Source of the DNA: Acidobacteriota bacterium
GTDB taxonomy: Bacteria; Acidobacteriota; Blastocatellia; Chloracidobacteriales; Chloracidobacteriaceae
DNA length: 64,000 nt
NCBI GenBank assembly: GCA_016208495.1
Contig: JACQXX010000077.1
Location: 1-64,000 of the forward strand
Reading direction: 5' to 3'
The notes below the pieces were generated by a model. It had not been told where the DNA came from, searched no databases, and was given only the letters and a program-made list of their open reading frames with translations. Numbering within the stretch: position 1 is the stretch's first letter; each line of letters opens with the position of its first letter. Shown piece after piece: positions 13,406 to 64,000 of the stretch. The position numbers and the translations under genes are program-made.

Positions 13406-13430
13406 GGGTTCGGGGTTCGGGGTTCGGGGT
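13406..13430. repeat. Heptamer array GGGTTCG upstream of the RpiR gene
   Basis: Three to four GGGTTCG units end in GGGTATG about 20 bp upstream of the regulator start. A GAGTTTCGAAAAGG sequence follows that resembles the TTCGAA cores beside the CCCTGAA arrays at 20890 and 54735. Confidence 0.85.
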
Positions 13431-36882: not shown

Positions 36883-36993
36883 GCGAAATAGCGAAATAGC
36901 GAGTAGCGAGTAGCGAGTAGTCAATCAAAGAGCCAGAACAAATCACCTGGTCACCTTGTCACCTTGTCACCTTGTCACCTTGTCACTTTGTCA
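36883..36993. repeat. GCGAGTA heptamer array followed by TCACCTTG octamer array
   Basis: GCGAAATA/GCGAGTA units (36883-36921) are followed by TCACCTTG octamers (36943-36993). The two families filling this gap recur together in the same order at 62299-62434. The array ends 15 bp before the plsC start, so repeat DNA forms most of its 5' leader. Confidence 0.88.
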
Positions 36994-39130: not shown

Positions 39131-39187
39131 GACCGTGGGCTTCGCACCACGGCTATTAAACGACGACCCTTCGGGCCTCAAACCCTT
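39131..39187. repeat. REP-like element: CCGTGG-GCTTCGCA-CCACGG hairpin unit
   Basis: GACCGTGGGCTTCGCACCAC starts a 57-bp unit with a CCGTGG/CCACGG stem, then a second small hairpin CCCTTCGGG, ending AAACCCTT. Near-identical units are at 62445-62501 and 62563-62620. Here it lies upstream of the MFS gene, and the open frame that runs into that gene through the repeat is not native coding sequence. Confidence 0.82.
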
Positions 39188-59169: not shown

Positions 59170-62067
59170 TTAGAACCGGAACCGGACGCCAAACTGAGCC
59201 TGGCGTGGTTCGCCAAAGCCCTGACGGACTGTTCCGTCAAAGTTGAACGTCAACGGACGCGGCACAAAGCGCAGGTTGCGGCTGTTGGCAATGTTGAAAA
59301 CTTCGAAAATCGCGTCCAACGCCATCGTTTCAGAGAATTTGAACGTCTTGAGCACGCGCAAATCCAACGTGGTGAACACGTTATCCTGACGACGGGTGTT
59401 GCGGCGAATGGTGGTGCCTGGGCAATCGCTGTTGCTGCGGGCACAGGCTGGATCCGAGAATGGCTGGGCTGATCGTGATTGGAAAATCAACGACAGTTGA
59501 ATGCCATACGGGGCTTCGTAGGTGCTGAAAATATTCACCCGGTGACGCTGGTCGCGGTCCGAGAATGAATATTCCAGGTCCAGATTCTGAATATCGGCAT
59601 AGCGGAAGGTAAATGGATCACGTTCGTTGTCGTCATCCGAGTAATCCCACGCCAGCACGTAGTTTCCCTGCACCTGGAAACGATTGGCAAAGCGACGATT
59701 GACCGAGAAGGTAATGCCTCGGAACAGCGATTTGGCTGAAGATTCGATGCTGCGAATTTCGCCAACCCCTGAACCATCAGCGGCGGCAAATGGAGAAGCG
59801 CCGCCATACAGTTGACCGTTGCCCCGATCCACAAACCGATACTGGCGGGTGGCGTGGGCATAGTTCAACGTGATGCCAACTGAGGTGTTGGTAAAGATTT
59901 CACGTTCAAAGCTGGCCGCAAACTGCACCGTGCGTGGGAATTCAAAGTTGCGTGGGAAAATCGCGATCCCTGGGTTAAAGGGTGAAAATCCTTCGGTTGG
60001 AACGATCCCTGGGAATTGCGGATAGGCTTCAATCGGCAGGCCCAGGAACCCGGCAAAGAAGATGTTTCCGGCAATGGCGCCGTCAGTGTTCCGTGGACCA
60101 GCCAACGGCAGGCCGGGCAAGCGGGCATAATAAATCCCCGCACCGAGCCGAATCGCGGTTTTTCCGTCATTTCCTGGATCCCAGGCCAACCCAACGCGTG
60201 GCTGCCAGCCATCGGTAAAGTCAGGAATGGTGCCATCCGATGGGAACAACGGGTTGTTGAGAAATTGAGCGTACCGGGTCTGGTTTGGAGCATTGAGCGG
60301 ATCTGGAAGGAATTGACCTTCCCATCGCAAACCATAATTCAGGGTTAAATTCGGTTTAATTTTCCAGGAATCCTGCACAAAGAACGCTGGTTCATTCACT
60401 GAAAATGATTGGAAGCCAGCCTGTTCAATGGTACGTCCACCGAGCGGAGCAAACTGCAGGTAGAGGGCCAGACCATTGGCGTTTCGGCCATCAATATAAT
60501 CCTGAAAACCCTGAATGGCGGAATCAATGGTTGGACCAGCAAAAATGTAGCGGCCACGGGCAAATCCGATGAAGGTCTGTTCAGTGGTCGTGCGGTTGTA
60601 TTCACCGCCAAATTTAATGTTGTGGTTGCCCAAAATCAGCGAGAAGTTGTCATTAAACTGCAGCCGGGTATCAACTTCCGGCACGGGCAGGAAGAAGGGG
60701 CGGCCAAAGCGATATGACAATGACCCGTCAAACGTCCCGATGGTGGTATCTGGCAGGTCCGGTCCGTCATAGAATCGGGGACGGGTCTCGCGGGCATACT
60801 GGAAGCGAAATTCATTGAGTGTGGTTGGGGTAATCGTGGTAACCAGTTGGGCGATAAACGCATTGCTGGTGCCTTCTTCGCGTCCGTTGGCGCTCGCCCC
60901 CCAGGTTGGCACGTCAAACGTACCGTTCACCTGTTTGGCCCGGCTATAGTTGTTCCGAAGCGTCAATAAATTACTTGGACTGATAGACCAATCCAGTTTG
61001 GCCAGCACCGCGTTGGCATCGTTGGTGCGTTCGATGTTGCCTTGCTCATTGGGTGATCCAAATCGCGTGGCAAACAACGATACCAGTCGGGGGTCAATCT
61101 GGTTTGGACGACTGCTGCTGCCGTTGTTCTGATCATATGAGACAAAGAAAAACGCTTTGTCGCGTTTGATCGGACCGCCAATGTTGCCGCCAAACTGATA
61201 GTTGTCAAAATCCTGGGTTGGCAAATTGGCCTTGACCGCGTCCGGGTTTTGACTGGCAATTGACTGGTTGCGGAAATACAAAAACGCAGTGCCGCGAAAA
61301 TCGTTGGTCCCTGATTTGGTGATCACATTGATGAACCCGCCTGATGATCGGCCAAACTCAGCCGAGGCACCAATCGGAACGACCTGAAATTCTTTCACTG
61401 ACTCTAACCCAATTGTGAAGGCTGGTCGTTGTCCACCGCGTTGCTCGCCAAAAAATGGGTTATTGGCATCAGCCCCGTCAACTGACAGGTTGTTTTGAGT
61501 CCCGCGTTGTCCGTACAGGGTGGCGACGTCCCCGTCTGGTCCCTGCACCACCGACACACCGGGGGTCAACCCAATGAAATTGGTGAAATCACGTCGGTTA
61601 ATGGGCAATGCCTGAACCGAACGTTCATCAATCAAGGTGCTCTGTTCGGGTCGTCCAGTGTCAACCACTGGTGGTTCAGTGGTAACCGTGATGACTTCAG
61701 ATGCACCACCGGGCTGGAGTTTCAAATTGAGTGTCAGCGTCTGACCAATGGTCAGGGCGATGTCTTCCTGAACTGTTGTCGAAAATCCTGAGGCTTCAAC
61801 AGTAAGTTTGTAAGTTCCAACAGGAAGCAGAGGAAGATTAAACAACCCACTGGTATTGGTTGTGACAGAGCGTTCCAGTCCGGTGCTTTCATTTTGCGCC
61901 GTAACCTTTGCACCCGCCACCACAGCGCCAGAGGTGTCAGTAATCTCACCCTGAATCAAACCTGTGGTTGATTGTGCTTGAGCAAAAACAGGCGTTACCG
62001 CTCCAATTGCCAGCACAATACCCAAAAGCAGCCGCCAAACTAGATTCGTTGCAGGCGTGGGTTTCAT
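59170..62067 (-). CDS. Oar-like TonB-dependent receptor
   Basis: The 965-residue product has an N-terminal hydrophobic signal (LVWRLLLGIVLAIGAVTPVFAQ), a carboxypeptidase-regulatory domain (about 35-120; GLIQGEITDTSGAVVAGAKVTAQ), a plug (ALPINRRDFTNFIGLTPGVSV; SVDGADANNPFFGEQ) and a barrel ending FGVRFRF. It resembles the receptor at 13698 in design but is clearly a separate gene with low direct identity. AGGGAA lies 7 bp before the ATG at 62067. Neighbouring genes do not indicate its ligand. Confidence 0.93.
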   Translation of the reverse strand: MKPTPATNLVWRLLLGIVLAIGAVTPVFAQAQSTTGLIQGEITDTSGAVVAGAKVTAQNESTGLERSVTTNTSGLFNLPLLPVGTYKLTVEASGFSTTVQEDIALTIGQTLTLNLKLQPGGASEVITVTTEPPVVDTGRPEQSTLIDERSVQALPINRRDFTNFIGLTPGVSVVQGPDGDVATLYGQRGTQNNLSVDGADANNPFFGEQRGGQRPAFTIGLESVKEFQVVPIGASAEFGRSSGGFINVITKSGTNDFRGTAFLYFRNQSIASQNPDAVKANLPTQDFDNYQFGGNIGGPIKRDKAFFFVSYDQNNGSSSRPNQIDPRLVSLFATRFGSPNEQGNIERTNDANAVLAKLDWSISPSNLLTLRNNYSRAKQVNGTFDVPTWGASANGREEGTSNAFIAQLVTTITPTTLNEFRFQYARETRPRFYDGPDLPDTTIGTFDGSLSYRFGRPFFLPVPEVDTRLQFNDNFSLILGNHNIKFGGEYNRTTTEQTFIGFARGRYIFAGPTIDSAIQGFQDYIDGRNANGLALYLQFAPLGGRTIEQAGFQSFSVNEPAFFVQDSWKIKPNLTLNYGLRWEGQFLPDPLNAPNQTRYAQFLNNPLFPSDGTIPDFTDGWQPRVGLAWDPGNDGKTAIRLGAGIYYARLPGLPLAGPRNTDGAIAGNIFFAGFLGLPIEAYPQFPGIVPTEGFSPFNPGIAIFPRNFEFPRTVQFAASFEREIFTNTSVGITLNYAHATRQYRFVDRGNGQLYGGASPFAAADGSGVGEIRSIESSAKSLFRGITFSVNRRFANRFQVQGNYVLAWDYSDDDNERDPFTFRYADIQNLDLEYSFSDRDQRHRVNIFSTYEAPYGIQLSLIFQSRSAQPFSDPACARSNSDCPGTTIRRNTRRQDNVFTTLDLRVLKTFKFSETMALDAIFEVFNIANSRNLRFVPRPLTFNFDGTVRQGFGEPRQAQFGVRFRF

Positions 62068-62298
62068 GGCTTTTCCCTTTTCTGTAGTTGAAATTGGTTG
62101 TTTTGGATAGCCGTGGATCAATGGCAAACAGAGTGTTTGCCGAGCTTCGGTGAATCCGAAGTGAGTTCAAGTGTTGAAGGATTTCCTGGAAATGCGAGAG
62201 TACCTGGCGAATGTTAATTGCTTGTAACATTTAGACAATCGCCAATCAAGTTTTTTCAGGCATTTCAATTATTTTTCCAGAACACAGTTGAATACAAG

Positions 62299-62345: not shown

Positions 62346-62385
62346 GCCTGACCTGTATCAGAGAACCGGGTATTTGTCCCCCCCC

Positions 62386-62640
62386 TCTCACCTTGTCACC
62401 TTGTCACCCTGTCACCCTGTCACCCTGTCATTTTGTCTGCTCCAGACCGTGGGCTTCGCACCACGGCTATTACACAACGACCCTGCGGGCCTAAAACCCT
62501 TCGCTTGAAGTGTATGCCCTGTCACCCTGTCACCCTGTCACCTTGTCATTTTGTCTGTTCCAGACCGTGGGCTTCGCACCACGGCTATTACACAACGACC
62601 CTGCGGGCCTAAAACCCTTCGCTAAACCCTTCGCTTGAAG
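62386..62640. repeat. Tandem duplication of octamer array plus REP-like unit (period about 118 bp)
   Basis: TCACCYTG octamers (62386-62434), TTTTGTCTG, then the CCGTGG hairpin unit (62445-62501) are repeated almost identically at 62514-62553 and 62563-62640. The second copy carries an extra GCTAAACCCTTC. The last roughly 110 bp of the second copy are read in frame as the C-terminus of the penicillin acylase gene. Confidence 0.9.
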
Positions 62641-64000
62641 TGAGTTGTCCAAATTTGAGAGATCCACCACCTGCCGCATTGAGACTCCCCACACTTTTCC
62701 ACGGCCATAGGCATTCACCGTGTTGGCGGAACCATTCATGACAAGCACCGGTGGATTCAAAATCGGTTTTAACAGGGAAATCCGAGCCAGTGGATGTGAA
62801 AACTCAAGGGTATTGAGTGCTCCATAATTCCAGGTAGTGCGATATTTTCCGAATTTCTGCTCCAATTCGACAATGGCTTCACGGTAGGTCGCCGCCAGGA
62901 GATCGTCATAGCTCTTAAACTTTTTTGGAAGCCAGTCAGCCGGTCGGTCCAGGATGAGCGAGGCATACACTGTTTCGGCATTTTCCCAGCGGTATTTGGC
63001 TTCAAAAGTGCCGAGCCTGGCCTCCAGTAACTTCTTAATGAATCGCAGCCGCCACGTCGTCACAATCGCAGCCACTCTTGAGTCAGCCTGGAGCTCTCCA
63101 TTCCATTCAGATAAATCCTGGTGGATGCGTTGCCAGGTTTCTTCACTTTTGTGATTGGGAAACAATTTCAAGACTTCTTTGACAAAGAGGTCATCTGGAT
63201 ACGACCAGGAATCAGCATGAATGGTGTTCATGCTGTCCAGCGTATGCTTTTCCTTCATTAAAATCCGGCGTTGAATCGCGGCGGCCCGATAAGGTGCATA
63301 CCATTGATGCGTGTAAAACTCGGGGATTGATTTCCCGGTAATCCGCTGGTTGGCGGTCACGATATACCCTTCCGCCGGATTAAACAGGTGCGGAAGCTGT
63401 TCAAAAGGGATATAGCCCGTCCACTCACCTTCCCCACTGGCACCATCAACCGGGACTGAACCATCCCCTGATTTCCGAATTGGAACCATCCCCGCCGCCC
63501 AATACCCAATGTTGCCATCAACATCGGCGTAAATGAAATTTTGCATCGGCCCGGGATACAGCTTGAGCGCCGCTTGAAAATCCTGCCAGGTGGCAGCTTT
63601 GGAAAGCAGGTCAAAGGTGGGGAACTCTGTCAGGGGGTCAAGGGCTGTCCAGCGGAGCGCATACCGTTTCCCGTTTTCTTCACGCACAATCGGCCCGTGA
63701 CGAGTTGTGGTGACCTGCAACACTTCCTCACGTGTTTCCGTGGACCAGAGTGATTTCCGAACCCGAATGCGCTCAGTTCGGAAACTGGCTTTTTCCCAGG
63801 CGTCTCCAACCCGATATTCGCCAGGGTTGACCGGGTTAAAAGTTTCAACAAAAAGATCCTGAACATCAGGGCCAAAGTTGGTGACACCCCACGCAATTCG
63901 GCTATTGTGACCGATCACAACACCGGGAATACCAGGAAAAACAAAACCGGAGACATTGAACCCGCCATCGGTGGTCATCAAATGCACCATATACCAGATG
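62530..64000 (-). CDS. Penicillin acylase family protein, 5'-partial, C-terminus replaced by repeat DNA
   Basis: The visible 490-residue part corresponds to the large (beta) subunit of an Ntn-hydrolase amidase. It begins in the IWYMVHL region at the right edge, followed by GFVFPGIPGVVIGHNSRIAWGVTN, VTTTRHGPIV and FIYADVDGNIGYWAAGMVPIRK. The gene continues upstream beyond the window; no stop is met. Near the 3' end WGVSMRQVVDLSNLDNS is native. The normal family ending (a GQSG...HY.D motif) is missing: the last 33 residues come from the REP-like unit and octamer array at 62530-62640. It may be non-functional or have a novel tail. Substrates of the family include N-acyl-homoserine lactones and beta-lactams. 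Confidence 0.85.
   Translation of the reverse strand, partial: IWYMVHLMTTDGGFNVSGFVFPGIPGVVIGHNSRIAWGVTNFGPDVQDLFVETFNPVNPGEYRVGDAWEKASFRTERIRVRKSLWSTETREEVLQVTTTRHGPIVREENGKRYALRWTALDPLTEFPTFDLLSKAATWQDFQAALKLYPGPMQNFIYADVDGNIGYWAAGMVPIRKSGDGSVPVDGASGEGEWTGYIPFEQLPHLFNPAEGYIVTANQRITGKSIPEFYTHQWYAPYRAAAIQRRILMKEKHTLDSMNTIHADSWSYPDDLFVKEVLKLFPNHKSEETWQRIHQDLSEWNGELQADSRVAAIVTTWRLRFIKKLLEARLGTFEAKYRWENAETVYASLILDRPADWLPKKFKSYDDLLAATYREAIVELEQKFGKYRTTWNYGALNTLEFSHPLARISLLKPILNPPVLVMNGSANTVNAYGRGKVWGVSMRQVVDLSNLDNSLQAKGLAKGFRPAGSLCNSRGAKPTVWNRQNDKVTG

Follow-up and report, generated by a model that had tools for sequence, protein, structure and literature searches.

A penicillin acylase gene lacks its conserved ending and reads into an Acido-Lenti-1-like repeat in an Acidobacteriota genome

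Analysis of a 64,000-nucleotide stretch of Acidobacteriota DNA (the window; positions 1-64000 of contig C77 in an 8.38-Mb draft genome of 177 contigs, 99.2% complete) suggests that a penicillin acylase gene of the Ntn-hydrolase type, in a Blastocatellia-type bacterium, has lost ~51 conserved codons at its 3′ end together with the native stop, and that its frame became fused to a neighbouring dispersed repeat made up of an Acido-Lenti-1-like element and an octamer array. We put the probability of this reading at roughly 60%. The features of the locus are as follows.

62641-63999, minus strand: native part of the penicillin acylase (PF01804) gene inside the window; the gene runs past the window to ~64965
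62533-62640, minus strand: 36 repeat-read codons (LQAKGLAKGFRPAGSLCNSRGAKPTVWNRQNDKVTG), from the translated frame; junction uncertain by a few bases
62530-62532, minus strand: TGA stop supplied by the octamer array, inside 62517-62548
62517-62548, no strand assigned: octamer array 2 (TCACCYTG), which closes every frame on the strand of the gene
62565-62610, plus strand: Acido-Lenti-1-like core, copy 2 (RF01687, 21.3 bits, model 1-46 of 46), antisense to the acylase and inside its frame
62399-62623, no strand assigned: tandem duplication of a 118-bp unit (62399-62505 compared with 62517-62623)
62447-62492, plus strand: Acido-Lenti-1-like core, copy 1 (RF01687, 21.3 bits), past the acylase stop codon
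62383-62430, no strand assigned: octamer array 1 (TRF)
59170-62127, minus strand: next gene downstream of the acylase, on the same strand; 985-aa reading frame

The lost ending and the repeat-read tail

The acylase gene lies on the minus strand of the contig, from ~64965 to 62530, and its product has 811 aa counted from the ATG; the reading frame inside the window occupies 62530-63999 (-). A PF01804 match of 660 bits (E 7.2e-198; cut-off 21.3) places the protein in the family by profile. The Gly-Ser-Asn-Asn-Trp processing site is present (GLGSNNWV), with S-N-N-W invariant among six aligned relatives, and we take its Ser to be the nucleophile. The product of the downstream 985-aa frame presumably resembles a TonB-dependent/Oar-type receptor. 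Two AlphaFold models gave mean pLDDT values of 46.9 and 50.6, a confidence too low for fold comparison.

After VVDLSNLDNS the acylase leaves the family pattern. The conserved ~51-residue ending that should follow was present in all 29 homologues examined (one per genome, from 38 other genomes searched; the other nine gave weaker rows and were left out). It has the pattern G-x-S-G...S-P-H-Y/W-x-D-Q...W...P and closes on a final Pro ~51 residues past the departure point. G7 is found in 29/29 sequences, S9, S14, D19, W24 and P51 in 28/29, and G10 in 27/29. The PF01804 match covers profile positions 1-635 of 675, and the C-terminal segment of the family (GxSG..SPHY.DQ..W...P) is lacking. A first-pass annotation of this DNA had stated that the family-typical ending after the DLSNLDNS region was missing, and the alignment with homologues from relatives that it proposed bears this out: the native ending is present in all 29.

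A profile built from the 29 tails recovered its positive controls (L068, 5e-23; the genome's own paralogue L002, 7e-11). It found no significant tail remnant in the window (best E 1.3), and none was seen beyond the repeat in three downstream frames; we rejected a native ending displaced past the repeat. The first-pass annotation had also proposed looking for the lost 3′ end elsewhere in the genome. Across the 8.4-Mb assembly the profile returned only the tail of a distant paralogue on contig C128 (1.7e-9; next 0.11; 0.08 in a single-sequence search). A match on contig C2, where a frame of 72 aa lies opposite an open one of 579 aa, was judged to be noise. As the profile finds only the C128 paralogue and nothing in the window, we conclude that the native tail is absent from the assembly, not displaced.

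The new C-terminus reads ...VVDLSNLDNS-LQAKGLAKGFRPAGSLCNSRGAKPTVWNRQNDKVTG-stop. The frame had previously been described as running through a REP-like unit and octamer array for 33 residues; repeat DNA and a stop in the array are indeed what we find, over 36 residues and not 33. The junction can be placed only to within a few bases, since identity with the repeat extends to 62642. Adjoining it is a 12-bp duplication (AAACCCTTCGCT, twice) that is absent from the other printed copies of the unit, and the element is cut there, stopping immediately short of the ...TATG that is found in copy 1, in a near-identical copy on contig C70 and in most copies printed. The stretch 62380-62660 has at least 62 matches in its own genome, itself included (40 of 426 candidates scored), hence a repeat content beyond chance. 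The next best copy, on C70, is 97% identical over query bases 48-176 only, and so is without the gene junction.

The 118-bp tandem duplication noted before was recovered by TRF with a period of 118; the unit is present about twice, and the two copies differ at 3/107 positions. Other same-strand tandem runs of the element, ~51-66 bp apart, occur in the same genome (G000:C146:16629-16805, C128:17692-17803, C99:40563-40659 and C93:3461-3558), and the acylase locus is therefore not alone in being duplicated in tandem. Read on one strand, the octamer TCACCYTG is free of stops in each frame, and on the other a TGA turns up in every frame within 24 bases; orientation therefore decides whether a given array, for example that at 62517-62548, serves as a stop cassette or as an open linker. 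The acylase enters this array on the closing strand, so any frame taken by the fusion would end there. Further TCACCTTG octamer arrays lie in the window at 2802-2876 and 36943-36993, and heptamer arrays at 13406, 32335, 34517, 52770 and 54743.

Origin of the fusion and state of the enzyme

The body of the acylase contains no frameshift or stop over ~785 residues. In a tree of the part before the junction its branch length is 0.333, compared with 0.353 for the intact sister L035, and it departs at 2 of the 94 columns invariant in the 22 closest others (those 22 depart at 0 to 6). One of the two departures is at residue 324, where T replaces P and the NDPHL of relatives becomes NDTHL. With the body unbroken, no branch acceleration and conserved sites mostly kept, a pseudogene by decay is unsupported. 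The undecayed body would mean either that the tail loss is recent or that the shortened product is still under selection, and the sequence data fit both.

We infer the polarity and mechanism of the fusion, taking the ancestral state from the 66%-identical acylase of the nearest relative compared (G001; same family, another genus) and from more distant homologues. Genes around the G001 acylase differ from those in the window on both sides, so synteny with this relative was uninformative. A deletion or repeat-mediated recombination may have joined the acylase gene to the neighbouring repeat, with slippage doubling the 118-bp unit after or before the joining; the shortened acylase would then be impaired or non-functional, and the event, judging from the undecayed body, probably recent. 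Plain insertion is disfavoured, as no tail remnant lies past the repeat. With the element cut at the junction and a 12-bp duplication there as well, deletion or recombination fits better than simple insertion. The locus had been called a direct example of repeat-driven gene remodelling, and its tandem duplication a sign of recent instability. The repeat does supply the C-terminus and the stop, and the 118-bp duplication is there; the repeat may have driven the change, and recency is suggested indirectly, by the undecayed body and the few differences between the copies.

Insertion of the element into the acylase, followed by later deletion of the 3′ remainder, is unlikely: elements of this family do occur inside other reading frames, but no trace of the remainder is found downstream in any frame, and the element is incomplete at its junction end. 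We also regard as unlikely an assembly artefact in which the assembler passed from the acylase through a high-copy repeat to unrelated sequence, the real gene keeping its tail. The genome is a draft with many copies of the repeat, at least one contig (C117) ends inside one of them, and the unlike neighbours of the G001 gene could be read the same way. However, a misjoin through the repeat would need a gene that already touched a copy at codon DNS. The junction lies inside the unit and carries a duplication unseen in the other printed copies, the two 118-bp copies are not identical, and the missing tail is in no contig of an assembly that is 99.2% complete.

Improbable, in our view, is that the shortened acylase with its new tail works, the repeat having given it a harmless or useful C-terminus under continued selection. 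The intact body, its ordinary branch length and the few changes at conserved sites would agree with this, as would the repeat-derived peptide found in frame in two other proteins of the genome, a nonribosomal peptide synthetase (NRPS) and a DUF11 protein. Yet the segment lost is conserved in every homologue examined, with G7 invariant, nothing in the new tail visibly resembles it, and a recent null allele would give an identical picture. Loss of the ending with fusion to the adjacent repeat is the reading we prefer.

Identity and distribution of the repeat

Within the 118-bp unit is a core of hairpin, linker and hairpin, and this core matches the Rfam family Acido-Lenti-1 (RF01687). The match is full-length with both hairpins (model 1-46 of 46; E 0.0048 in a 181-base search), with a single pair (two letters) of hairpin 2 flagged as non-standard; at 21.3 bits each, the two copies at the acylase do not reach the gathering score of 37. 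A third copy in the window, at 39133-39178 (+), scores 24.8 bits. Five other copies in the same genome lie above the gathering score, at 37.5-45.9 bits. In a search of this genome at E up to 1, at least 120 of 128 rows cover model positions 1-46, a lower bound, as 150 of 1554 candidates were scored, and one in which weak rows may include chance matches; of 14 control genomes, 4 also gave matches in this loose search, none of which passed the family cut-off. Judged by its shared flanks (CTTATCCTGGCGCTTATG) and by the intermediate scores, the window unit is a divergent relative of Acido-Lenti-1, grading into the above-cut-off copies of its own genome. Eukaryotic miRNA matches in the Rfam searches were dismissed, all being below their cut-offs.

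The earlier label "REP-like" does not survive this comparison. An element served by a RAYT was rejected, since the core was absent near all nine Y1_Tnp (Y1/RAYT-type transposase) loci of the genome (0/9; core sought at 68% or better, ungapped, in fetched flanks of up to ~1.5 kb). Among five genomes of relatives searched with RF01687, three have copies above the cut-off and two none at E 0.01. One relative, G002, has 77 matches that include 25 close pairs, all inverted, 22 of them spaced 131-144 bp and three 208-219 bp; no direct or opposite-type pairs within 300 bp were seen among the 77. This layout resembles that of MITEs or REPINs; the family itself is catalogued as RNA. The acylase locus has two direct copies 118 bp apart and not an inverted pair at fixed spacing.

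We compared the element with open frames at 108 loci of its own genome, holding 122 copies. Ninety of the 122 fall in none of the three frame-overlap classes used. In 18/122 copies same-sense octamers lie downstream of the core, at most 80 bp away, and in 4/122 upstream of it; core and octamer array are sometimes, not usually, linked. Nine reading frames end in the core or within 100 codons past it. The idea that many genes are cut like the acylase was rejected, as the acylase alone among these has a Pfam family and the eight others have none. Twenty-four further frames begin at or near the core, and most look by eye like upstream over-extension of ordinary genes. At two loci the core lies inside a longer frame. 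Entry of the element into coding sequence thus occurs but is rare among the loci sampled.

One of these two longer frames (L101, G000:C118:56406-59163) encodes an NRPS with Condensation and AMP-binding domains, which contains two in-frame 111-bp Acido-Lenti-1-type units (cores at contig positions 57706-57752 and 57817-57863, minus) and is unbroken. Its residues 424-508 (about 85) have only ~14 counterpart residues in a homologue of known structure, linear gramicidin synthase; we take the insertion site to lie between the A2 and A3 regions of the adenylation domain. The other (L103, G000:C122:2762-5407; frame 3-1691, minus) is the DUF11 protein, which carries the element in the frame of the acylase tail (ELRPAGSLFNSRGAKPTV), with repeat-read RVPGTES/RVQGTET runs beside it.

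Comparison with known systems and significance

Terminal fusion of a small element to a gene is already in print; the acylase differs by the loss of a conserved segment. As described in PMC2759123, the Erwinia carotovora amidase ECA3499 carries ERIC/RU-1 as a fusion at its 3′ end; there, as in the acylase, a small dispersed element replaces the native stop of a conserved hydrolase with its own, adding ~34 residues. The conserved domain of ECA3499 is intact in that description and the protein only extended, whereas the acylase loses ~51 conserved residues, and the element families differ. In Coxiella burnetii Dugway (PMC5896051), QMITE2, a REP/MITE-type element at the 3′ end of enhC, likewise provides the C-terminal 33 residues, and the stop lies just past it; in the account used, EnhC has an extension that varies between strains, and loss of a conserved ending is not described. 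Rickettsia palindromic elements (RPEs), as treated in a MITE review (PMC10969869), are short dispersed palindromic elements found in frame in unrelated genes, and the in-frame units of the NRPS resemble them. The review presents RPE fusions as compatible with the protein, whereas the acylase is altered at its end and has lost a conserved segment. The account of the Acido-Lenti-1 motif itself (RF01687; PMC2864571) lists it as a likely RNA. The two hairpins and linker of our unit align over the whole 46-position model; the unit differs in its score (21.3 versus the gathering 37) and in being a high-copy dispersed DNA repeat. No mention of this acylase locus was found in the literature searched, a statement limited to the locus itself.

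A broader reading, which we offer as tentative and somewhat doubtful, is that Acido-Lenti-1 in this bacterial family is a mobile-type DNA element, occurring in inverted pairs and repeatedly entering coding sequence (the acylase end, the NRPS tandem pair between A2 and A3, the DUF11 protein), and that linked octamer arrays stop every frame when read on one strand and serve as open linkers when read on the other. Of greater interest than the acylase is the behaviour of Acido-Lenti-1 as a dispersed inverted-pair element that is also found in frame within an NRPS. The acylase would be a clear instance of a conserved enzyme deprived of its ending by a dispersed repeat and not yet eroded elsewhere, so that the locus offers a testable view of gene damage linked to repeats. 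It also suggests that a repeat listed in databases as an RNA of unassigned role is a DNA element, and shows how predicted proteins in such genomes may bear repeat-read tails.
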